From: Streptomyces sp. 71268
GTDB lineage: Bacteria; Actinomycetota; Actinomycetes; Streptomycetales; Streptomycetaceae
DNA: 64,000 bases
Reading direction: 5' to 3'
Assembly (NCBI RefSeq): GCF_029392895.1
Contig: NZ_CP114200.1
Span: 7,942,501 to 8,006,500, forward strand
The notes beneath the pieces were generated by a model. That model was given only the letters and a program-made list of their open reading frames with translations, was not told the origin of the DNA and searched no databases. Of the stretch, positions 10,399 to 21,343 are shown one piece after another. Both the position numbers and the translations under genes were made by a program. The first letter of the stretch is position 1. Each line of letters starts with the position of its first letter.

Positions 10399-11517
10399 TC
10401 AGGCGGCCCAGGAGTAGGGGTCGGGGTAGCTCGGAGTGCGACCGAGGGCGCGCGCCGCGCGGTGCGGCCAGTACGGGTCGCGCAGCAGCTCCCGGCCGAG
10501 CAGGACCGCGTCCGCCTCGCCGGACTGGAGCACCTTCTCGGCCTGCTCCGGCTCGGTGATCTTGCCGACGGCCGCGACCGGAAGGTCGGTCTCCGCCTTC
10601 ACCCGGGCCGCGAAGGGGACCTGGTAGCCGGGGCCGGTGGGGATGTGGACGCCGGTGGCGTTCCCGCCGGTGGAGACGTCGAGCAGGTCCACGCCGTGGG
10701 CGTGCAGGTCGCGCGCGAAGCGCACCGTGTCGTCGGCCGTCCAGCCGAGCGGGCCATCGGCCTCGGCGCCGTCCGCCCGCGCGGTCTCCTGCAACCAGTC
10801 GGTCGCCGAGATCCGGAAGAAGACCGGCAACTCCTTGGGCCACACCGCGCGTACCGCGTCCACCACCCGCAGCGCGAAGCGGGTGCGGTTCTCGTACGAG
10901 CCGCCGTACGCGTCCGTGCGGTGGTTGCTGTGCGGGGAGAGGAACTCGCCGATCAGGTACCCGTGCGCGCCGTGCACCTCGACGACCTCGAAGCCGGCGG
11001 CGAGCGCGCGCCGGGCCGCGTCCGCGAACTGGCCGACGATCTCGTCTATACGCTCCTCCGTCAGCTCGTCGGGGACCGGGTGGTCGGCGTCGAAGGCGAT
11101 GGGGCTCGGCCCGACCGGCTGCCAGCCGTGCTGCGCGGGGTCGGTGATCGGGGCGCCGCCGCGCCAGGGGCGGTCGGTGCTCGCCTTGCGCCCGGCATGT
11201 GCGATCTGGATGCCCGGGACGGTGCCGTGCTCCTTGAGCGATGCGGTGATCCGGCGCAGCGCCTCGACCTGGGTGTCGTTCCAGATGCCCAGGTCGGCGG
11301 GGCTGATCCGGCCCTCGGGGGAGACGGCGGTGGCCTCGACCAGGATGAGGCCGGCGCCGCCGACGGCCCGCGAGGTGTAGTGCGTGTGGTGCCAGTCACC
11401 GGCCACGCCGGCGTTCGGCCCGAAGACCTCGGCGGAGTACTGGCACATCGGGGCCATCCAGACGCGGTTCGGGATGGTCAGTGTCCGCAGGGTGTACGGC
11501 TCGAACAGGGCGCTCAC
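10399..11517 (-). CDS. NADH:flavin oxidoreductase, YqjM-like old yellow enzyme
   Basis: A 372-residue FMN-dependent ene-reductase that would reduce activated C=C bonds with NAD(P)H. Features of the YqjM (thermophilic-like) subclass are visible: MAPMCQYSAE with Cys25 near the flavin, QIAHAGRKAS at 105-113, VHGAHGYLIGEFLSPHSNHR with the substrate-binding His pair, and RISATDW and the C-terminal LLGRELLRDPYWPHRAA. It is probably cytoplasmic and involved in electrophile or quinone detoxification, by analogy. The promoter carries two copies of an operator motif also found before the ArsR-type gene at 20981, so repression by that protein is likely. Confidence 0.92.
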   Translation of the reverse strand: MSALFEPYTLRTLTIPNRVWMAPMCQYSAEVFGPNAGVAGDWHHTHYTSRAVGGAGLILVEATAVSPEGRISPADLGIWNDTQVEALRRITASLKEHGTVPGIQIAHAGRKASTDRPWRGGAPITDPAQHGWQPVGPSPIAFDADHPVPDELTEERIDEIVGQFADAARRALAAGFEVVEVHGAHGYLIGEFLSPHSNHRTDAYGGSYENRTRFALRVVDAVRAVWPKELPVFFRISATDWLQETARADGAEADGPLGWTADDTVRFARDLHAHGVDLLDVSTGGNATGVHIPTGPGYQVPFAARVKAETDLPVAAVGKITEPEQAEKVLQSGEADAVLLGRELLRDPYWPHRAARALGRTPSYPDPYSWAA

Positions 11518-11684: not shown

Positions 11685-12788
11685 TTACGACACCCGCGAT
11701 GCGCCCCGCGCCCCGTCGGCCGCCCCGCCGCCCGCGCCCCGCTGCTTGGGCCAGGCCGGCACCGGGCCGCCCCACACGCGACGCCGTCCCGGCCGCTCCG
11801 CAGCGCGCGTGGACTCCCAGACCCGGCGCCACCGCGCCGCGCGCCGTACCCCGGCCGTCGGCGGCGCCGAGGCGGGGGTCGGCGGCGCGTCGGCGGCCTC
11901 CACCGCGCCGCGCAGCGCTCCGTACCACCCCACGTCCGTCTCCGCCCACAACGCGTTGACCTCGCGCATCATGCGATCGCGGAAGGCCGGCGCCGTCTCG
12001 TCGGGGCCCGCCACGATCGGCCGGCCGAAGCGCACGCTGATCGGCGCGGCGTCGCGCCGGGGCAGCACGTCACCCGGCGGCAGCGCCGCGAACGTGCCCC
12101 GTACCGCCACCGGCACGGCCGGCACCCCGGTGTCCAGGCACAGCCGCGCGGCGCCCAGCCGGAACCAACTCATCCAGCCGTCGCGGGAGCGCGACCCCTC
12201 GGGGAACAGCAACACGCTCCAACCACTGCCGATCAGCCGCGTCGCCAACCCGGCGCCGTGGCCGCGCCGCCCGGCCCCCCGGTCGCGGCGCCGGTCCACC
12301 GGGAAGGCGTTGAACAGCAACGCCGTCGTCACCCCGGTCAGCCGCGAGGCGAAGAAGTGGTCGGCCGCCGCGCCCACCGTCGTCCGGGCCGCGACGGGCC
12401 CCGGCAGCGCCCCCAGGATCAACGGCGTGTCGAGGTGGCTGGCGTGGTTGGCCACGAACACCACCGGTCCGCGCAGCCCCGCCAGGTGCTCGCGCCCCGT
12501 CACCACGGGCCGGACGTGCGCCCACAGCAGCGGCTTCAGCACGCCGGTGCGCAGCGCGTCACGAGCCAGCGCGGCCGGCGCCGACCGGGCCCAGGCGGTA
12601 CGGAACGGCGCCCGCGCCGCGTACTGCTCGGGCGGCAGTCCGCGCGGCGGCCTGGCCCGCCCCCGCCAGTCGCGTCCCTGGCGCAACAGGGCCAGGTCAC
12701 GGCGCAGGCCCCCGCCGTTCCCGCGCGCCGCGCCGCCGAGCCACCGGGCGGCCCGGTTGCCGGGCCCGCCCTCCCGTCCGCCCGTCAC
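11685..12788 (-). CDS. 1-acyl-sn-glycerol-3-phosphate acyltransferase-like protein (PlsC family)
   Basis: A 367-residue glycerolipid acyltransferase-like protein. The catalytic HX4D motif is NHASHLD, followed by FFASRLTG, the phosphate-binding motif FPEGSRSRDG and the VPAVPVAVRGTF block, in the family order. It would transfer an acyl group, perhaps from the acyl carrier protein encoded in the same locus, to a hydroxyl on a lipid precursor at the membrane. The N-terminal 80 residues and the C-terminal 90 are basic, Ala/Pro-rich extensions outside the core. The start is GTG 12788, overlapping the stop of the LarA-like gene by 4 nt (GTGA), so translational coupling is likely; the 851-residue reading that continues upstream is rejected. 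Confidence 0.86.
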   Translation of the reverse strand: MTGGREGGPGNRAARWLGGAARGNGGGLRRDLALLRQGRDWRGRARPPRGLPPEQYAARAPFRTAWARSAPAALARDALRTGVLKPLLWAHVRPVVTGREHLAGLRGPVVFVANHASHLDTPLILGALPGPVAARTTVGAAADHFFASRLTGVTTALLFNAFPVDRRRDRGAGRRGHGAGLATRLIGSGWSVLLFPEGSRSRDGWMSWFRLGAARLCLDTGVPAVPVAVRGTFAALPPGDVLPRRDAAPISVRFGRPIVAGPDETAPAFRDRMMREVNALWAETDVGWYGALRGAVEAADAPPTPASAPPTAGVRRAARWRRVWESTRAAERPGRRRVWGGPVPAWPKQRGAGGGAADGARGASRVS

Positions 12789-14362
12789 GAGACGTCCGCC
12801 AGGGTCAGCGGCGGGGCGTGCAGATAGGTGATCTCCGGACTGCCGCCCACCGTGTGCGAGGCCAACTGGAGGGCGTCGGCCAACGTGCTGGCCGCGCGGA
12901 ACCCGAGGCGGGAGGCGACCGCCGGATCGGCACCGACGAAGATGACGTCGCCCAGGTGCTCCCTGGCGTGCGCGCACCAGTACCACATGTAGAACGGGTG
13001 CACCCCGTGGTACGCGTAGCTCCTGCGGTACAGGTGGACGTACCACGGATCGGTCGCGAACTGCTCCTCGAACTTGCCCTCCACCACGGCCGGGTCGGTC
13101 GACTGGGTCAGCACGTCCTCGTAGAAGTCGAGGTAGCTCGGGTGGTGCACGGTGTGGAACTCGTTCGGCAGCGGGTGGTAGAAGATGCCCACCCCACCAC
13201 GCCGGACGATGGGCTTGTTCAGGTACATGTTGAACAGGTAGCCGAGGCCCATCGAGGCCACCAGGATCGGGTTCATCACCGAGTTGACGTTGTACGGGCA
13301 CAGGTACGGCACGCCGAACACCCCCACGTCCGCCTGGCCCGACACCGGCGTGACCTGTTGCCGGTGCACGTGTCGCAGTGTGATGGGGTGCACCGCGCTC
13401 GGCGCGCCCGCGGCGACGCTGGTCACGCCCCAGGGTGCGGCCACCCGGTGGAAGGCGCGCCGGCGCAGCGCGGGCGGGAGCAGCCGGGAGCCGCGCCGCG
13501 CACCGATGAACGCCGCCTGGTCCGCCGCGTTCCACTCCCACTCGCGCTTGCTGAGGAAGCCCAGCGGCTGCGGGAAGGCGTCGTTGTTCAGCGCGGTCTC
13601 GATCGTGAACACCCTGACCTGACCGCCGATCAGGTCCTGCATGCGGTCGTAGGAGCGGTGCATGGCCGAGTGGGCCGGGTCGTTGAAGGAGCGCGAGTTC
13701 CGCAGGGTGTCCACGTTGTGGTGGTGGCGCAGGCTGCGGTAGCTGGCCAGGCCCACCGACACCGACTTCGGCCCGCCGTTCATCGCCACCAGCGTGATGT
13801 TCACGTACACGATGAGATCGCTCTCCGCCGCCCGGCGGTTGATCTCCACGTCCTCGCCGTGCCCGGTCTGGCCGAGGTGGAGCAGGTTCTCCTGGTCCTC
13901 CGCGTCGTGGTTGCGCAGGTGCTGGGGGAAGAACGAGCGGAAGACCCGGTCGCCCACCACGTGCCGCAGCTCGGCCGGCGTCATGCGCCGGTGCAGCGCG
14001 TTGGCCGCGATCAGCTCCACGTCGTCTACCCGGTGCGCGGCGGCCAGCTCCAGCACGTGCTCGATGATCCGCTGCCGGATGTCCGGGCTGCGCATGGGCG
14101 GCAGCGGCAGCGACAGGTCGTCGAAGACGATGGTCAGCCGCATGCCGGGGCGCAGCAGCGCGGGCAGCGGATCGCTGCCGTGCGGCTGGTGCAGCGCCCG
14201 TGTGATCGCCGCGTCCAGGTCCCGGATGCCGGGCAGGCACGCGGGCGGGTAGACGACCCGAGCGCCGTGCGGCAACTGTTCGAGTCGGAAGCCCTCCCCC
14301 TCACACACCAGCAACGGCGGTGTGCGCTCGTCGACTTCGAGGACCAGTCCGGGTCTGCTCAC
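12785..14362 (-). CDS. LarA-family (lactate racemase domain) protein
   Basis: A 525-residue protein with the nickel-pincer-nucleotide-dependent LarA fold; known LarA racemises lactate by hydride transfer on a Ni-pincer cofactor bound through a lysine. Aligning from memory with Lactobacillus plantarum LarA: VFDDLSLPLPPM (79-90) matches the nucleotide-binding loop, ANALHRRMTPAELR keeps a His at 124 (H108 equivalent), GGPKSV keeps the pincer lysine at 199 (K184) and LRHHHN (211-216) can supply the nickel His (H200). The second catalytic His (H174) appears lost, the local sequence being VNITLVAMNGG. The C-terminal 300 residues are longer and more divergent than in LarA. GTG 14362 overlaps the upstream stop by 4 nt. 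Substrate unknown; context suggests a lipid-linked hydroxy compound. Confidence 0.8.
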   Translation of the reverse strand: MSRPGLVLEVDERTPPLLVCEGEGFRLEQLPHGARVVYPPACLPGIRDLDAAITRALHQPHGSDPLPALLRPGMRLTIVFDDLSLPLPPMRSPDIRQRIIEHVLELAAAHRVDDVELIAANALHRRMTPAELRHVVGDRVFRSFFPQHLRNHDAEDQENLLHLGQTGHGEDVEINRRAAESDLIVYVNITLVAMNGGPKSVSVGLASYRSLRHHHNVDTLRNSRSFNDPAHSAMHRSYDRMQDLIGGQVRVFTIETALNNDAFPQPLGFLSKREWEWNAADQAAFIGARRGSRLLPPALRRRAFHRVAAPWGVTSVAAGAPSAVHPITLRHVHRQQVTPVSGQADVGVFGVPYLCPYNVNSVMNPILVASMGLGYLFNMYLNKPIVRRGGVGIFYHPLPNEFHTVHHPSYLDFYEDVLTQSTDPAVVEGKFEEQFATDPWYVHLYRRSYAYHGVHPFYMWYWCAHAREHLGDVIFVGADPAVASRLGFRAASTLADALQLASHTVGGSPEITYLHAPPLTLADVS

Positions 14363-16674
14363 GCGTAGCTCCTTGTCGCTGTGCTGGCACCGCCGGCCCG
14401 CACCGTCTCGGTCAGCGCCTCCCACCGGGTGCCCGCGTGCGCGCCCCAGCGCACGACGGGCCAGTGCCGGCGCGCGGCGTACCGGTACAGCCGCAGGTCG
14501 GGATTGACCGCGCAGGGCCGGCCGACCGAGGCCAGGAAGGGCCGGTCGGAGTAGCTGTCGGCGTACGCGTACGAACGCCGCAGGGACAGCCCGTGCTCGC
14601 GCGCGTACTCGCGCAGCCACGCGGCGCGCGCCTCGCCGACCACCGGTGGGGCCACCAGCCGGCCGGAGAGCACGCCGCCCCGGCTCTCCATCCGGCAGGC
14701 CACGATGTCGTCGAAGAGCGGGCGCAGCGGCTCGACCAGCAGGTCGAGGCTGCCGGTGACCAGGACGGTGCGGTGCCCGGCCGCGCGGTGCTCGCGCGCC
14801 CGGCGCACCGCCTCCGGCAGCGCCCGCCGCAGCATCGCGTCCGCCAGCGCGTCCCGCACCAGGTCCCGCAGCGCGGCGGCGTCGGCGCCCTGGTAGCGGC
14901 GCAGGAAGGCGCGGACGAACGCCGCCCGGTCGGTGCGCTCCGCGCGCAGGTAGCGGGGGACCGCGCGGGCCAGGTCGAGCAGCTCGGCCGCGTGGCCGGG
15001 CAGCGAGCCGGAGCCGAGGCGGGCCCACAGGTAGGACTCGACCATGTCGGCGGCCACGAAGGTGCCGTCGAGGTCGAAGACGGCGGCGACGTCGTCCGCC
15101 GGCGGCAGCGCGCGGGGCGCCGCGCGACCGCGCCCGGCCGCCGCCCCGCGCAACCCCATGGCGTCGCGCAGCCGCCGGGTCACCGCCGGGCAGTGCACCT
15201 CCTCCAGGTAGTCGCGCCAGTCCAGCCCGCGCGGGTCGAAGCCGCGCTCGGCCGCGAGCCGTGGCGGCAGGGAGCGGTGCAGGGCCATCAACTCCCGGTC
15301 GTCATAGCGGCCCTGCGCGCCGGTGTACGGCTGGTACACCTCGAAGTAGTGCCGCTGACGGGCGAGTTCGCCGCGCCGGTGGCGCAGCCCGCGCTCCCGC
15401 TCCTGGACCCGCTCGCCACCGGGCAGCCACTCCAGCGCGCTACCGGCCGCCGCGACGGCCCGGTCGGCGAGGTCGAGCGCCGTCCGCACGCGCGCCGGGC
15501 TCTGGAACCGCCACCGCGCGTGCCGCAGGTGACCGCGCCCCGACGGATCGGGCAGCGGATGCCGGGTGAAGTACGCGTCCAGGTGGTCGTGGAGCGCCCC
15601 GTAGGTCAGCGGGTTGCCGGCGCCCGAGCCGACGTGGAAGTAGTGCGGCGCGTCCGCCGGCGGCACCGCGGCGGCGGCGGCCAGGATCGCGTTGACCACC
15701 AGGTCCGCCGGGATGACGTCCAGGACGGCGTCCGGATCGCCCGGCAGGTCCCACATGGCCCCCGTCCCGTAGTCGATGATCAGCGGGTCGAGCATCTTGT
15801 GCCCGTCGATCCAGCCCGGGTACGGGTGGCGCAGCGCGCTCTCGACGATGGCCGGCCGCAACACCGTCAGCGGTCGCCCGGCCCAGCCCTCCTCGGTGGC
15901 CCGCTCGGCCAGCGCCTTGGTGAAGGTGTACACGTCCGTCCACCCCAGCGCGTTGGCCCGGGCCCGCCCGTAGGCGACCAGCCGCCGCGCCACCCACGCC
16001 CGCCTGGCCTCCTCGGCGTGCCCGGCCACCACCTGGTTGCCGCACGGCGCGTGCGCCCGGCCCGCCTCCCGCAGCAGCCGGCGCAGCACCTCGGGGCGCC
16101 GCGAGTCCCGCTCGACCTCCGCGCGTACGGTCTCGCTGGCGGCCAGCTCCTCCCGCCAGTCCACCGTGTGCCGCAGCGGCTCCTCGCGCACCGTTCCGTG
16201 GCCGGGCGCCGACACGTAGGCGGTGGAGACGTAGACCAGGTGCGGCGGCACGGGCTGGCGGGCCAACTGCTCGCAGAGCCGGACGGCCCCGGCGACGTTG
16301 GAGCCGAACGCCTCGTCGATGGGCGGGTCGAAGGTGACCGCCGACGCGCAGTGGATGACCGTGTCCAGGTCGTCCGGCAGCCCCGTCACGCTCTCCAGGT
16401 CACCCTCGACGACCTGGACCCGGCGCGCCGCCTCGGCCAACTCGTCGTCACCGCCCGGCCGTTCGTGCCACCGCCGGAACACGTCCTTCCGGAGCAGCCG
16501 CACCAGGCGGTCACGGCCACCACACCCGCCCCGGCCGCGCAACAGGAGGCTGACGCGGGTGTCGGGATGGTCGGCGAGCAGCCGCTCCAACACGGCCTGC
16601 CCGATGAACCCGGTGGCCCCGGTGAGGAGGACGTGCGCCCCCTCCAGGCTGGTGACGGCGTAGGTGCGCGGCAT
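14359..16674 (-). CDS. Fatty acyl reductase-like SDR fused to HAD-IB phosphatase
   Basis: A 771-residue two-domain protein. Residues about 10-400 form an extended short-chain dehydrogenase of the fatty acyl-CoA/ACP reductase type: NAD(P) site LLTGATGFIGQ, CASAVTFDPP, YVSTAYVSAPG and the Tyr-x3-Lys pair in VYTFTKALAER. A FAR-type C-terminal helical part follows. From about residue 530 a HAD-IB (SerB-like) phosphatase begins: FDLDGTFVAAD with the nucleophile Asp, VLVTGSLDLLVEPL, and YADSYSDRPFLASVG. The first half should reduce an acyl thioester to aldehyde or alcohol; the second should remove a phosphate. ATG 16674 follows GAGGAAG. It is the first gene of the FAR/LarA/PlsC overlap chain and lies 217 nt after larC. 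Confidence 0.83.
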   Translation of the reverse strand: MPRTYAVTSLEGAHVLLTGATGFIGQAVLERLLADHPDTRVSLLLRGRGGCGGRDRLVRLLRKDVFRRWHERPGGDDELAEAARRVQVVEGDLESVTGLPDDLDTVIHCASAVTFDPPIDEAFGSNVAGAVRLCEQLARQPVPPHLVYVSTAYVSAPGHGTVREEPLRHTVDWREELAASETVRAEVERDSRRPEVLRRLLREAGRAHAPCGNQVVAGHAEEARRAWVARRLVAYGRARANALGWTDVYTFTKALAERATEEGWAGRPLTVLRPAIVESALRHPYPGWIDGHKMLDPLIIDYGTGAMWDLPGDPDAVLDVIPADLVVNAILAAAAAVPPADAPHYFHVGSGAGNPLTYGALHDHLDAYFTRHPLPDPSGRGHLRHARWRFQSPARVRTALDLADRAVAAAGSALEWLPGGERVQERERGLRHRRGELARQRHYFEVYQPYTGAQGRYDDRELMALHRSLPPRLAAERGFDPRGLDWRDYLEEVHCPAVTRRLRDAMGLRGAAAGRGRAAPRALPPADDVAAVFDLDGTFVAADMVESYLWARLGSGSLPGHAAELLDLARAVPRYLRAERTDRAAFVRAFLRRYQGADAAALRDLVRDALADAMLRRALPEAVRRAREHRAAGHRTVLVTGSLDLLVEPLRPLFDDIVACRMESRGGVLSGRLVAPPVVGEARAAWLREYAREHGLSLRRSYAYADSYSDRPFLASVGRPCAVNPDLRLYRYAARRHWPVVRWGAHAGTRWEALTETVRAGGASTATRSYA

Positions 16675-16768
16675 GGCTTCCTCTGGGTCGGCGATGACGG
16701 GGGACGGGGAGGGGACGCGGGCACGGCGCGGCGCGCCGGCGGATGACATGGCGACGGCGCGGGCACCA

Positions 16769-16799
16769 GCCTCCCGCCGCGAGGCTGTCGGCGGGAGGC
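16769..16799 (-). terminator. Hairpin between larC and the acyl reductase gene
   Basis: Perfect 11-bp stem, GCCTCCCGCCG (16769-16779) with CGGCGGGAGGC (16789-16799), 9-nt loop, about 93 nt past the larC stop and 95 nt before the reductase ATG. It could end or attenuate transcription from the cofactor genes. No U-run is seen, as is usual in this GC range. Confidence 0.6.
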
Positions 16800-16891
16800 G
16801 GCCGTGGGGGAGCGGCCGAGCGGTGGTGGCCGCGTGCGGTCGGTGGCCGGCGTGCGCCCCGCGCGGGGAGGTGAGGGGGGCCGGTGGCTGA

Positions 16892-18388
16892 TCAGGTGTG
16901 GCCCGGCGGCTGGCGCGGGACCGCGCGGGCGGGGGGCTCGCGCAGGTAGTTGCTGATGGCCGCCGCGCAGACCTGCCGGACCGGCCACCCAAGGGCCCGC
17001 GCGGCGCGCTCCGCGTCGGCCAGCTCCGGCTGCACCGTGACCTCACCGCCCGGCACGTCGGCGATCTTGACCGGCACGTACTGCTCCCGCCCTGGCGGAC
17101 CGACGGCCACCGTTACCACCCGGCGCGGCAACGTCGTACGCCGCTGCACGGACCAGCGCACGCCCAACGTCGTGGTGTGCCGCAGCAGTACGTCGGTGAC
17201 GGCGGGCCGCACCTCGGCCGCGCACAGCGCCGTCACCAGCCGACCCGGCCGACCACGGCGGCCGACGGTACCGATCGTCCAGCAGTCCCACGCCCCGGCC
17301 GCGCGCAACGCGTCGAGCACCGACGGCCACAACCGCGGGTCCAGGTCGTCCACGGTGCTCTCGACCACCACGACCTCACCCGAGACCGCGGCCGACGGCA
17401 CGTCAAGCGCCTCGCCCAGCACGACGCGGGTGATGTTGGGCCCCTCGGCGGTGTCCCGGCCGCCCCCGCCGACGCCGACCGCGCGCACCGTCATCGCGGG
17501 CATGGGCCCCGGCGTGGCCACCGCCGCCACCAGCGCGGCCCCGGTCGGCGTCGTACGCTCCCCGGTCAGCTCGCCCGCGGCCAGCGCGAGCCCGTGCCGC
17601 GCGGCGATACGGAGCACGGCGGGCACCGGCACCGGCAGTTGGCCGTGGGCGCTGTCGACGTGCCCGCTGCCCGCCGCCAGCGCGGAGCACGTCACCTGGG
17701 CGTCCGCGGCCAGCAACCCCAGGTCGGCCAGGGCCGCCGCGCAACCCACCACGTCCGCCAGCGCGTCGTGCGCGCCGACCTCGTGGAAGTGCACCTGCTC
17801 CGGCGTCGTGCCGTGCACCCGCGCCTCGGCCTCCGCGAGCAGTTCGAAGACCCGGCGCGCGAAGCGGGCGACATCGGGCGCGAGGCGCGCGGCGGCGAGC
17901 AGCGCGAGCACCTGCGGCAGACGCCGGGCCCGATCGGGGACGGACGGCTGTTCCACGTGGGCCCGCAGGCAGGCGAACCCACCGCGCCGCGCGGGCCGGG
18001 TGCGCACCGCGAGGCCGGGCACGTCGAGGGCGGCCACCGCGTCGGCCACCACGCGCGGGTCGGCCCCCGCGTCCACCAGCGCGGCCAGCAGCATGTCGCC
18101 CGCGACGCCGGCGGTGCAGTCCAGGTGCGCCGCCCGCACCGGCGCGCCGTCCACGCCCGCCGGCGCCGACGCGCCCGGGGCCGCCTCGGTGCCCGGCGGC
18201 CCCTGCGGCTCGGCCGTGTCGCAGGGCTCCGGGGCGGCGGGCACGGCCGGTGGCGCGGAGCCCTGCCGGGGCTCGGCCACCGGGCGGGACCCGGCGCGCG
18301 GGGGAGCCTGCGGCGGCTGCGGCGCGGTGGGCGCCGGTCGCTCCGTGGGCGTGGTCGAGGCCGGCCCCGCCTCGGGGGGTTCGCTCAT
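16892..18388 (-). CDS. larC: Nickel-pincer cofactor biosynthesis protein LarC (nickel insertion)
   Basis: About 498 residues. LarC inserts nickel into the dithiocarboxylated nicotinate nucleotide, the last step of pincer cofactor synthesis. The family start is clear (HLDCTAGVAGDMLLAALVDAG), with VHFHEVGAHDALADVVG, GSGHVDSAHGQLPVPVPAVL, ERTTPTGAALVAA and, in the C-terminal domain, ESTVDDLDPRLWPSVLDALR and a final VPVKIADVPGGEVTVQPE. Both halves are in one frame, unlike Lactobacillus, where larC needs a programmed frameshift. The first 85-90 residues are a Pro/Ala-rich extension. ATG 18388 has GGAG at 9 nt; GTG 18523, overlapping larB by 8 nt, is the alternative start. Confidence 0.88.
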   Translation of the reverse strand: MSEPPEAGPASTTPTERPAPTAPQPPQAPPRAGSRPVAEPRQGSAPPAVPAAPEPCDTAEPQGPPGTEAAPGASAPAGVDGAPVRAAHLDCTAGVAGDMLLAALVDAGADPRVVADAVAALDVPGLAVRTRPARRGGFACLRAHVEQPSVPDRARRLPQVLALLAAARLAPDVARFARRVFELLAEAEARVHGTTPEQVHFHEVGAHDALADVVGCAAALADLGLLAADAQVTCSALAAGSGHVDSAHGQLPVPVPAVLRIAARHGLALAAGELTGERTTPTGAALVAAVATPGPMPAMTVRAVGVGGGGRDTAEGPNITRVVLGEALDVPSAAVSGEVVVVESTVDDLDPRLWPSVLDALRAAGAWDCWTIGTVGRRGRPGRLVTALCAAEVRPAVTDVLLRHTTTLGVRWSVQRRTTLPRRVVTVAVGPPGREQYVPVKIADVPGGEVTVQPELADAERAARALGWPVRQVCAAAISNYLREPPARAVPRQPPGHT

Positions 18389-18515
18389 CGCGTGCGTCTC
18401 CATGTCGTGTCGCGGCCCGCTGTCCACGCGGGCCAGTGGCGCCTGGTACGCCTCGTCCGTCCCGGGCCGAGCGGGCCCCGCGCCCAGCGGCCGCGCGCCG
18501 TGGGCCGGACCCGGC

Positions 18516-19205
18516 TCAGTCACCGTGCACCGCGTTGATCACCTTCGCCGCGTGGACCGCGGCCCCGAAGCCGTTGTCGATGTTGACGACCGTCAGGCCG
18601 GGCGCGCAGGCGGAGAGCATCGAGCCCAGGGCGGTGACGCCACCCGACGCCACCCCGTACCCCACGCTCGTGGGCACCCCGACCACCGGCGCGCGCAACA
18701 GTCCGGCCACCACGCTGGGCAGGGCGCCGTCCATGCCGGCTACGACGAGCGCGCAGTCGACGTCGTGCAACCGTGGCAACTGCGCGAACAGCCGGCCGAT
18801 ACCCGCGACGCCCACGTCGTCCACGAGCGTGGCCCCCACCCCCAGCGCCGCCAGCGTGGCCAGGCACTCGCGCGCCACCGGCAGGTCGCAAGTTCCGGCC
18901 GTCAGCACGCCGACCCTCCCGCGCGGCGGCGGCAGCGGGCCCACCGTGACCGTCCGCGCCACCTCGTCCACGCGTACGGGGTCGGTGCCGAACGCGGTGG
19001 GCGCGGCGGCCAGCACCTCCTTCGGGCACCGGGTTGCCAGGGCCGGCGCGCCCGGGTCACCCGCGCGCAGCTCGGCCAGCAGCCGCAACGTCTGGGCCAC
19101 CGTCTTGGCCTGCGCGAACACCACCTCCGGCACCCCGGTCCGGTCGCGCCGCGCCACATCGAGCCTGGCGTAGTCGGCCACCCGCAGGGCCTCGGTCTCG
19201 CTCAC
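18516..19205 (-). CDS. larB: Nickel-pincer cofactor biosynthesis protein LarB
   Basis: A 229-residue LarB, which carboxylates and hydrolyses nicotinic acid adenine dinucleotide to pyridinium-3,5-biscarboxylic acid mononucleotide, the first committed step. The N-terminal part (ARLDVARRDRTGVPEVVFAQAKT) is typical, and the PurE-like C-terminal domain shows GVLTAGTCDLPVARECLATL, VVAGMDGALPSVVAGLLRAPVVGVPTSVGYG and the closing VVNIDNGFGAAVHAAKV. GTG 19205 overlaps the larE stop by 4 nt (GTGA), implying coupled translation. A 598-residue frame that joins it to the larE region is an artefact of overlap. Confidence 0.93.
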   Translation of the reverse strand: MSETEALRVADYARLDVARRDRTGVPEVVFAQAKTVAQTLRLLAELRAGDPGAPALATRCPKEVLAAAPTAFGTDPVRVDEVARTVTVGPLPPPRGRVGVLTAGTCDLPVARECLATLAALGVGATLVDDVGVAGIGRLFAQLPRLHDVDCALVVAGMDGALPSVVAGLLRAPVVGVPTSVGYGVASGGVTALGSMLSACAPGLTVVNIDNGFGAAVHAAKVINAVHGD

Positions 19206-20218
19206 GAGGCGCCCTCGACCACCGCGCGCGGGGCGCCACCCTGCCGCGGGCCGGCGGGCCGCGGCACGAGAGGGCCGGCGCGCCCCGTACGGCACCGCCC
19301 GGGGCCGGGCCCAAGACCAGGTCCGGCGTGCCCCGGCCCGAGGCTCACGGCGCCGGAGCGGTAGCGGGCCACCGAGCCCGGGCCGAGCCGCGTCGCCACC
19401 GCCACGCGGCGCAGCAACGCGCCGGCCCGCTCCGGCCGCCCGTCGAGCCAGTCGTACGCGGGCGGCCCCAGCTCGACACGGAAGTCCGCCGCCAGAAGTC
19501 GCACCCGTACGTCGGTGACCGGTACGCGGCCGGCCGCCAGCTCCGCGCGGACCAACTCCTCGGCCCGCTCCACCAGCGCGAGCCGCTCGCGCGTCACCGG
19601 CACCCCGACCGCCACCCGCGACGAGAGGCAGGGCGTGCCCGGCTTCTCCGCGACCGACAGTCCCCACGCGGCGGCCACGGCGCGCACCTCGCGCTTGCCC
19701 AGGCCGGCGTCGGCCAGCGGCTCGGCGACGCCGAGTTCCGCCGCCGCGCGCAGCCCCGGCCGGTGCGCGGCCCGCCGGTCGTCGCGGTGCGTGCCCGTCG
19801 CGACGCCGTGGAACCCGCGCTCGGCCGCCACGTCGGCCACGCGCGCCAGCACGGTGCGCTTGCAGAAGTAGCAGCGGTCCCCGGAATTCTCCCGGTAGCC
19901 GGGGACCGTCCACTCGTCGGTGGCCACCACGACTAGCTCGGCGCCGATCTCCGCCGCCGCGCGCCGGGCGCCGCGCAGTTCGTCCCTGGCCAGAGCCGGG
20001 GAGTCCGCGATGACCGCGAGTGTGCCCGTACGACCCCAGGTCCGTACCGCGGCGGCGAGGACCACCGTGGAATCGACGCCGCCGGAAAACGCGACGGCCA
20101 GGGGGGCGTGCCCGGACAGACTCGAAAGCAGGGCGGCCGCCCCGGGGATGTGCCCGGTTCGTTGCTCGCTCCCGCTTTCGCTTTCGCCTTCGCCGAGCAT
20201 CGTGCTCTTGCGCGTCAA
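19202..20218 (-). CDS. larE: ATP-dependent sulfur transferase LarE
   Basis: A 338-residue PP-loop enzyme that adenylates the cofactor precursor and introduces sulfur during pincer nucleotide synthesis. The PP-loop is SGGVDST at 45-51; ADSPALARDELRGA follows as in LarE. Cysteines sit at 116 and 119 (CYFCK) and at 197 (KPGTPCLSSR, the position of the sacrificial Cys176 in L. plantarum). A three-cysteine pattern is what LarE enzymes using an iron-sulfur cluster show, so catalytic rather than sacrificial sulfur donation is possible; this is inference. The C-terminal 60 residues are a Gly/Pro/Arg tail. TTG 20218 is preferred because GAGGAGAAAGG precedes it; ATG 20200 is the alternative. Confidence 0.92.
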   Translation of the reverse strand: MTRKSTMLGEGESESGSEQRTGHIPGAAALLSSLSGHAPLAVAFSGGVDSTVVLAAAVRTWGRTGTLAVIADSPALARDELRGARRAAAEIGAELVVVATDEWTVPGYRENSGDRCYFCKRTVLARVADVAAERGFHGVATGTHRDDRRAAHRPGLRAAAELGVAEPLADAGLGKREVRAVAAAWGLSVAEKPGTPCLSSRVAVGVPVTRERLALVERAEELVRAELAAGRVPVTDVRVRLLAADFRVELGPPAYDWLDGRPERAGALLRRVAVATRLGPGSVARYRSGAVSLGPGHAGPGLGPGPGRCRTGRAGPLVPRPAGPRQGGAPRAVVEGAS

Positions 20219-20388
20219 GAATCCGCGCCTTTCTCCTCAGGAGTGATCGGTGGCACGTTCGGCGGCGACTCGGGCCGCGCGGCACCGCGCGGGGCGGGCG
20301 CCGACGACGCACGCCGCGCCTCCGCCGTCGGGTCGCCGCCCGGGTCGCCCACTGTCAGTCGGCCGCCGGGCGTCGGTCGCGCGCCCTG

Positions 20389-20646
20389 TCAGGTCCGCAG
20401 TCCGGCCTCGGCGAGGTCGCGGCCGGTCTCGATCCATTCCGCGATCTGCCGCAGGGTGAGGTCGCGGGTGACGTCCTCGTCGCTGACCCGCAGGCCCGTG
20501 CGTTCCGCGAGCACCAGGGAGAATTCCAAAAGGGCGAGGGAATCCAGCTCCAACTCCTCAAGCGTGGCTTCCGGGCGCAGTACGGCCTGGTCCACCTCGA
20601 ACTGTTCGGCCAGAATTTCCGTGATGACGCCAAAGGCATCGCTCAT
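20389..20646 (-). CDS. Stand-alone acyl carrier protein of the lar/lipid locus
   Basis: An 85-residue acidic acyl carrier protein. The phosphopantetheine attachment site is Ser36 in ELDSLALLEF, and the four-helix pattern (FGVITEILAEQFEV, LALLEFSLVLAERTG, TLRQIAEWIETGRD) is normal. It is not the fatty-acid-synthase ACP, which lies beside fab genes, so it probably carries a dedicated acyl chain to the reductase or the acyltransferase encoded downstream. It is the first gene of the leftward locus, 170 nt before larE; that gap shows no convincing terminator. The ATG follows a GGAG-type site. Confidence 0.9.
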   Translation of the reverse strand: MSDAFGVITEILAEQFEVDQAVLRPEATLEELELDSLALLEFSLVLAERTGLRVSDEDVTRDLTLRQIAEWIETGRDLAEAGLRT

Positions 20647-20980: not shown

Positions 20981-21343
20981 GTGGCAACTCAGCAGGCCCC
21001 CGCCCCGTCGGGCCGGGTACTCGACCACCCGGACGTCGACGAGATCCGCCTCGAACACGTGCTGCACGCGCTGTCCGACCCCATGCGCCTGCGCATCGTG
21101 TGCCGGCTCGCCACCGACGGCGGCGAGCTGGCCTGCTCCGTCTTCGACCTGCCGGTGAGCAAGTCCACCTGTACCCACCACTTCCGCGTGCTGCGCGAGA
21201 GCGGCGTCATCCAGCAGATCTACCGCGGCACCGCCAAGATGAGCCTGCTGCGCGAGCAGGAGCTGGAGCGCCTGTTCCCCGGCCTGTTGGACAGCGTGCT
21301 GACCGCCGCCCACCACCAGGAACAGCGCCTGGCCGCGCGCTGA
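20981..21343 (+). CDS. ArsR/helix-turn-helix family transcriptional regulator
   Basis: A 120-residue winged-helix regulator. The DNA-binding core is LHALSDPMRLRIVCRL, then VSKSTCTHHFRVLRESGVI as recognition helix and wing. The classical ArsR metal motif (ELCVCDL) is absent; two cysteines (ACSVFDLPVSKSTC) and a C-terminal His pair (AAHHQ) exist, so metal or thiol sensing cannot be excluded. Proteins of this subgroup are often encoded next to NADH:flavin oxidoreductases, and the shared operator links this one to the gene at 10399-11517. GTG 20981 has AGGAG 5-6 nt upstream. It is divergent from the lar/lipid locus and may control it too. Confidence 0.88.
   Translation: MATQQAPAPSGRVLDHPDVDEIRLEHVLHALSDPMRLRIVCRLATDGGELACSVFDLPVSKSTCTHHFRVLRESGVIQQIYRGTAKMSLLREQELERLFPGLLDSVLTAAHHQEQRLAAR

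Follow-up and report, generated by a model that had tools for sequence, protein, structure and literature searches.

A nickel-pincer LarA homologue in a possible ether-lipid operon of Streptomyces sp. 71268

The stretch of DNA analysed here, hereafter the window, comprises 64,000 nucleotides of the genome of Streptomyces sp. 71268 (contig NZ_CP114200.1, positions 7,942,501 to 8,006,500 of the forward strand). On its reverse strand, from 20646 down to 11685, seven genes follow one another in the order of their transcription, encoding an acyl carrier protein (ACP), LarE, LarB, LarC, a fatty acyl reductase fused to a HAD-IB phosphatase (FAR-HAD), a homologue of the nickel-dependent lactate racemase LarA and a PlsC-type acyltransferase. 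An earlier note, made from the sequence alone, had named these seven leftward genes in this very order, and every one of them was recovered; its remark that they mostly overlap is a fair one, as overlaps of 4 or 8 nt are found at four of the six junctions, leaving gaps of 188 nt between ACP and LarE and of 217 nt between LarC and FAR-HAD. We propose, giving it an even chance, that we are dealing with an operon for a fatty-alcohol glycerolipid, probably of the alkyl-ether type, where LarA with its nickel-pincer cofactor would fill the slot held in sister clusters by a close homologue of alkyl-dihydroxyacetone phosphate (alkyl-DHAP) synthase, AGPS. The genes are the following, in the order of transcription:

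20389..20646, reverse strand: ACP, 85 residues (PF00550, 9.2e-11; DSL motif; NCBIfam score under the cut-off)
19202..20200, reverse strand: LarE, sulphur transferase for nickel-pincer synthesis, 332 residues (TIGR00268, 230 bits for a cut-off of 150; CxxC and two more cysteines)
18516..19205, reverse strand: LarB, 229 residues (NF033503, 234 bits for a cut-off of 175)
16892..18523, reverse strand: LarC, with LarC1 and LarC2 in a single frame, 543 residues (TIGR00299, 177 for a cut-off of 90; NF052512)
14359..16674, reverse strand: FAR-HAD, fatty acyl reductase fused to HAD-IB phosphatase, 771 residues (PF07993, NAD_binding_4, 6.8e-44; PF12710, HAD, 9.9e-35)
12785..14362, reverse strand: LarA homologue of the LarAH14/15/16 kind, 525 residues (NF052592, 889.6 bits for a cut-off of 740)
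11685..12788, reverse strand: PlsC-type acyltransferase, 367 residues (PF01553, 3e-17; HX4D and FPEG motifs; NCBIfam score under the cut-off)

The three cofactor genes, for LarB, LarC and LarE, all lie inside the operon of the window genome, which encodes a single Lar_N protein. The nearest named proteins are those of Streptomyces buecherae (98% for LarA, 97% for FAR-HAD). Residues 10-514 of FAR-HAD match the fatty acyl-CoA reductase of PDB entry 7eoz (1.2e-62), while its PF03015 match falls under the cut-off of that family. A proline-rich N-terminal stretch of about 130 residues (window 18094-18523) precedes the family match of LarC, the true start of which may be a later ATG, at 18388 or 18403. 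A scan for promoters and terminators found none.

A conserved core with LarA or a close AGPS

Scanning public genomes with the LarA protein brought up at least 575 stretches encoding a relative, in many actinobacteria, among them Frankia, Kribbella, Nocardioides and Actinomadura. The best 80 of them were kept, and all counts of related loci given here refer to these 80, in which FAR-HAD was scored by its HAD half. Wherever the fetched DNA had room for the neighbour, FAR-HAD was found directly upstream of LarA (74/74) and PlsC directly downstream (77/78); an MDR dehydrogenase of the zinc-dependent kind lay between the genes for FAR-HAD and LarA (74/75). The association of FAR-HAD, LarA and PlsC is far beyond chance. 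That the cofactor and lipid genes should be neighbours by accident, for which it can be argued that LarB, LarC and LarE are all three within the fetched DNA in only 25 loci (2 loci have two of the genes, 53 have none) and ACP in none, is hardly credible in view of the place of LarA between FAR-HAD and PlsC in nearly all loci with room, and of its co-occurrence with FAR-HAD in the class sample described below; the idea is refuted for these three proteins, and it is possible that ACP alone is there by chance.

Absent from all 80 loci, ACP is ruled out as a core gene, and the core is made of FAR-HAD, LarA, PlsC and the zinc dehydrogenase, the last without a counterpart in the window genome, rather than of the seven-gene set. 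The earlier note had expected the lipid genes to be conserved together with the lar genes: this stood for FAR-HAD and PlsC with LarA, and failed for ACP, which it had counted in the unit, as well as for LarB, LarC and LarE, all near in 25 of the 80 loci. LarA and the lipid genes do form one conserved unit, and its guess of an acylated or ether-type lipid as the product is still the best one. The MDR dehydrogenase of the relatives resembles polyol dehydrogenases, with all matches under the cut-offs.

As the 80 loci are the closest relatives of the window LarA, a sample of the class provides the fairer count. It consisted of 393 actinobacterial genomes, with a requested completeness of at least 90%, in each of which the FAR-HAD and close-AGPS searches scored only two or three candidates; FAR-HAD was accepted at full length from 594 bits (next match 95), LarA at E < 1e-80 and the close AGPS from 622 bits (next 373). 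Full-length FAR-HAD was present in 69 genomes, LarA in 48 and the close AGPS in 35. Among the 69 genomes with FAR-HAD, 46 have LarA, 32 the close AGPS, 9 both and none neither. LarA without FAR-HAD was met in two genomes, each time on a contig of about 4 kb, and the close AGPS without FAR-HAD in three, all of them drafts of 560 to 880 contigs from group g35, which is Frankia by its position in the tree. The FAR-HAD locus was fetched for 12 of the 23 genomes devoid of LarA: 11 of the 12 hold AGPS with an adjoining PlsC, and the twelfth genome, G243, has AGPS beside PlsC at another place. The close AGPS matches a solved enzyme (PDB 2uuu, 1.4e-108), and the HHH motif is kept by the AGPS of all 11 loci; a further candidate, L047, with a match of 25% and no HHH, was rejected as a locus of this type. 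The MDR dehydrogenase (E <= 1e-60) goes with LarA, being found in 42 of the 48 LarA genomes vs none of the 23 with a close AGPS and no LarA; in the latter 23, LarB was found in 5 and LarC in 4. Around the same FAR-HAD, then, intact LarA and the close AGPS have a complementary distribution.

The genomes that hold both are telling in this respect. There are ten of them, nine from g35 and one other, G424. In the nine with a readable LarA site (that of G239 was unreadable), K199 is replaced by Gly or Ala in every case and H214 is also lost in every case, to Val or, in G424, to a gap. Conversely, H124, K199, H214 and H215 are intact in all 36 readable LarA genomes without the close AGPS (the window genome not counted; the site of G166 was unreadable), as they are in G031, a close relative of the window genome, and in the window itself. 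Loss extends to the synthesis of the cofactor: LarB scored above its cut-off in 37 of the 38 LarA genomes where the close AGPS is absent and in 1 of the 10 where it is present (the match in G195 is partial and under the cut-off), and LarC gave the same counts, 37 of 38 vs 1 of 10, a 46-residue fragment in G306 being left uncounted; of the nine genomes that carry FAR-HAD, LarA and the close AGPS together, eight have neither LarB nor a full LarC. That the nickel enzyme, or its cofactor site, tends to be lost where the close AGPS is present suggests that both enzymes are capable of related tasks.

The frames of LarA devoid of the lysine lie beside FAR-HAD, in the loci L145, L146, L147, L155, L156 and L158-L161. 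These proteins have perhaps found a second life without the nickel-pincer nucleotide (NPN), and the eroded set perhaps corresponds to group 16 of the LarA homologues, which PMC7583248 set aside because the cofactor residues are not conserved.

Trees were built from 45 of 91 rows for FAR-HAD (midpoint root; ten of the eleven AGPS-type loci included, L047 excluded), 41 of 97 for LarA and 44 of 101 for PlsC. The clusters with a close AGPS (L133-L138, L140-L144) have the same FAR-HAD as a nested clade, together with a PlsC-type acyltransferase: the ten AGPS-type FAR-HADs form a single clade (support 100/100), sister to that of a LarA-type locus, L018 of Haloactinopolyspora (100/98), and the set that also takes in the window FAR-HAD has a support of 95/98. 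In the LarA tree, which distant LarA rows join elsewhere, rows related to L018 and to the window lie well inside, so that the LarA-type cluster is probably the older state. Where it has MDR, LarA and PlsC, the other type has AGPS and a PlsC of its own. The eroded LarA of G424 is joined to the Frankia-like rows (92/81, on a long branch) and the corresponding FAR-HADs lie apart, which speaks against a single origin of the eroded genes and makes two or three losses possible. Judging by their AGPS, the clusters of the second type would make ether lipids; the window has the reductase, the acyltransferase and the phosphatase of such a cluster and lacks the alkyl-DHAP synthase.

A further protein family, c17, is found near FAR-HAD in both types of cluster, in 9 of the 80 LarA loci and in 5 of the 12 fetched loci devoid of LarA (for example L020:2762-3637, L011:2157-3071, L136:10939-11727 and L137:7993-8793). 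The members scanned have no Pfam or NCBIfam match; they carry two ExxH motifs and appear ferritin-like, the model being weakly like acyl-ACP desaturases and R2-like oxidases (best E 2.6e-3). No c17 match was found in the window.

The LarA site and the reaction it may carry out

Mapped on lactate racemase, H124 of the window LarA corresponds to His108, K199 to Lys184, H215 to His200 and D82 to Asp72, and the marks of an NPN-binding protein (the fold, Lys184, His200 and Asp72) are all there. What is missing belongs to the racemase: the pair of His108 and His174 is incomplete, position 174 being occupied by Ile/Val when read ungapped and by Thr/Asn in the HMMER alignment, and the counterpart of Arg75 is L85. 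Of 87 LarA rows, 84 retain K199 and 85 retain H124; at position 85, Leu or Ile was read in 83. Fold, cofactor lysine, nickel histidine and one catalytic histidine are common to the window protein and the LarA of Lactiplantibacillus plantarum; the latter has, in its 433 residues, the second catalytic histidine and Arg75, neither of which is found among the 525 residues of the window LarA.

The structures 9q2u/9q3k and 9q3j are the nearest solved ones both in sequence (1.3e-34) and in fold (2.9e-30), at an identity of 20-23%; the AlphaFold2 model of the window LarA (mean pLDDT 89.6) has as its best solved match the single-histidine LarA 9q3k (TM 0.75/0.82). These enzymes likewise have one catalytic histidine, the cofactor lysine, the nickel-binding histidine and no known substrate; they differ at 174 (Asn, where the window protein has Ile/Val or Thr/Asn) and at 75 (Lys, where it has Leu). 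Their neighbours are genes of sugar metabolism, and they have been linked to carbohydrate metabolism (PMC12611868). The same source places the lack of His174 in LarA groups 14 and 15, and calls such enzymes uncharacterised.

In the earlier note it had been inferred that LarA would racemise or epimerise a hydroxy acid or a polyol. In its fuller form, where the hydroxy acid or polyol acid so converted supplies an acylated lipid with its backbone or head group, this explanation can call on the alpha-hydroxy acids used by characterised LarA homologues (PMC11770544), on the name of NF052592 at NCBI, 'NPN-dependent hydroxyacid isomerase', on the presence of LarB, LarC and LarE, and on the likeness of the relatives' zinc dehydrogenase to polyol dehydrogenases, under cut-offs though it is. 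We consider it improbable. The second catalytic histidine is missing; the arginine that in Isosphaera LarA contacts both the NPN phosphate and the substrate carboxylate (PMC12611868) is replaced by Leu or Ile in 83 of 87 rows; and LarAH14 of Frankia, a member of the same NF052592 family as the window LarA, was inactive in all seven assays (PMC7583248, Table 1). Nor would it predict the pattern with the close AGPS. The absence of both the second histidine and the carboxylate-binding arginine makes plain racemisation of a hydroxy acid by the window LarA unlikely.

We may now see how the glycerolipid operon proposed here could work. From what is known of their families, LarE, LarB and LarC would make the cofactor, the FAR domain would convert acyl-ACP or acyl-CoA into a fatty alcohol, PlsC would acylate the backbone and the HAD domain would remove phosphate. 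The occurrence of either LarA or the close AGPS suggests redox chemistry where alkyl-DHAP synthase would otherwise act. The step of LarA would then be redox-assisted and free of inversion, H124 being the sole acid/base histidine of the known pair; one histidine would suffice, since no inversion is needed. Its substrate is probably no simple alpha-hydroxy acid, and would have no carboxylate at the usual place. More specifically, LarA might oxidise an acyl-glycerol phosphate at C2 by abstraction of a hydride, yielding a transient ketone that would permit exchange of the O-acyl for an O-alkyl group, as AGPS does on acyl-DHAP, after which the hydride would go back to the same face. That the nickel-pincer enzyme itself forms the glycerol ether bond in this way, as an AGPS-independent ether-lipid synthase, is a tentative proposal that we hold to be unlikely, though of consequence: to our knowledge it would be the first NPN reaction without net isomerisation.

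Distant AGPS-like proteins and the number of products

A number of observations weigh against LarA taking the place of AGPS in this glycerolipid operon. A repeat of the AGPS search covered 39 LarA genomes, G031 and the 38 of the class sample in which the close kind had not been found, and scored almost every candidate (35 of 45 in G230). Again no close AGPS was found; a distant AGPS-like protein, however, is present in 31 of them, leaving 8 with none, the window genome and G031 included, so that AGPS can be said to be absent from LarA genomes for the close kind only. The distant proteins are mostly 36-39% identical to the query. The HHH motif is kept in each of the 20 examined, a set drawn from genomes with LarA and from others, and the one from G102 matches 2uuu (6.6e-81). 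Taken together, the distant and the close kinds occur in 209 of the 393 class genomes. If the distant protein makes alkyl-DHAP, most LarA genomes would need no LarA for that step, and the exchange would be limited to the kind of AGPS that stands beside FAR-HAD. Because no AGPS-like protein, near or distant, was found in the window genome at E <= 1e-40 (all 28 candidates scored), this objection leaves that genome untouched. Elsewhere it counts: the presence of the distant protein beside LarA has led us to lower the standing of the proposed operon from somewhat probable to evenly balanced, and that of ether formation by the nickel enzyme from rather unlikely to unlikely, while raising that of two separate lipids, considered below, from unlikely to rather unlikely.

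Other objections come from the genes themselves. No orthologue of the MDR dehydrogenase was found in the genomes of the window, of G031 and of L030 (Streptomyces altiplanensis), where the best matches are about 35% identical. The cluster is scarce near the window, as the LarA cut-off was passed by 2 of 61 relatives, namely the window genome and G031. The genomes counted are not independent, the evidence for the exchange coming from two or three lineages, and the Fisher values calculated for the pattern take no account of kinship. In three Frankia-like loci (L200, L201 and L204) the close AGPS has no adjoining PlsC, and G424 retains LarB and LarC in spite of its close AGPS and eroded LarA. The eroded LarA genes are still open frames where, of 106 conserved polar positions, 36 have been lost and 70 retained; they are therefore seemingly under constraint, and may still act. 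The PlsC proteins of the two types of cluster form separate groups, which implies that a whole module was exchanged and not a single gene, MDR-LarA-PlsC being apparently replaced by PlsC-AGPS. To this must be added that we know of no lipid from strains carrying this cluster, that the NCBI family name speaks for a hydroxyacid isomerase, and that a LarAH15 protein from Phytophthora, which may or may not be of this family, epimerises D-mannonate (PMC11770544).

Several of these facts would be accounted for if there were two end products. Both types of cluster would use the fatty alcohol made by FAR-HAD, the LarA type for a distinct lipid of the diol, hydroxy or sugar type and the close-AGPS type for an ether lipid, and lineages would have swapped one lipid for the other. 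With a distant AGPS-like protein beside LarA in 31 of 39 genomes, ether synthesis may already be covered; the groups of PlsC differ; the zinc dehydrogenase is confined to the LarA side in the counts given above; and the nearest solved relatives of LarA are linked to carbohydrate metabolism (PMC12611868). What fits takeover of a step better is the erosion of the LarA site in place, with the operon otherwise kept, in the nine readable genomes that have the close AGPS. We therefore see two products as a possibility, a rather unlikely one, which still deserves more credit than the racemisation of a hydroxy acid.

The distant AGPS-like family is itself widespread in actinobacteria, including genomes with an intact LarA, and its loci are collected as L206-L225.

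Origin of the block and wider meaning

Two genes outside the operon flank it in the window:

10399..11517, reverse strand: OYE-type reductase, left flank (PF00724)
20981..21343, forward strand: ArsR-type regulator, right flank, elsewhere a neighbour of OYE

In 19 of 28 loci of other Streptomyces, OYE and ArsR adjoin and are divergent; in 6 OYE is in the flank and otherwise placed, and in 3 there is none. Most likely, then, the whole block of seven genes, ACP included, was inserted between OYE and ArsR, and the ArsR of the window is most likely the former regulator of OYE. A role as the nickel sensor of the operon is unlikely for a protein which is the side-by-side, divergent partner of OYE in so many relatives. 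ACP is also found in the close relative G031.

The system that comes nearest in its parts is the Elb operon of Myxococcus xanthus, which has ElbB (HAD), ElbD (FAR-ACS-ACP-AGPAT) and ElbC (no assigned function) and makes alkyl-ether lipids mostly without AGPS, by steps not yet resolved (PMC9131029; also PMC11948995). It shares with the window operon the kinds of parts, namely FAR, ACP, acyltransferase and HAD. ElbD, however, is one large protein that includes an acyl-CoA synthetase, whereas the window has separate genes, among the seven of which a Pfam scan found no acyl-CoA synthetase. Lactate racemase is not mentioned in PMC9131029, and the link of LarAH14 to FAR-HAD and PlsC is not described in the accessible part of PMC7583248. 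A literature search joining LarA or the nickel pincer with Streptomyces, or lactate racemase with ether lipids, found nothing, subscription papers being mostly outside its reach.

The pattern with the close AGPS gives one group of uncharacterised LarA proteins, those without His174, a concrete pathway. The question of ether formation by the nickel enzyme is most pressing where FAR-HAD and an intact LarA occur without any AGPS-like protein, as in the window genome. The pattern may also bear on the formation of alkyl ethers without AGPS, a stated gap, for example for Elb in Myxococcus (PMC9131029), and such a pathway would tie the supply of nickel to the making of membrane or storage lipids in aerobes.

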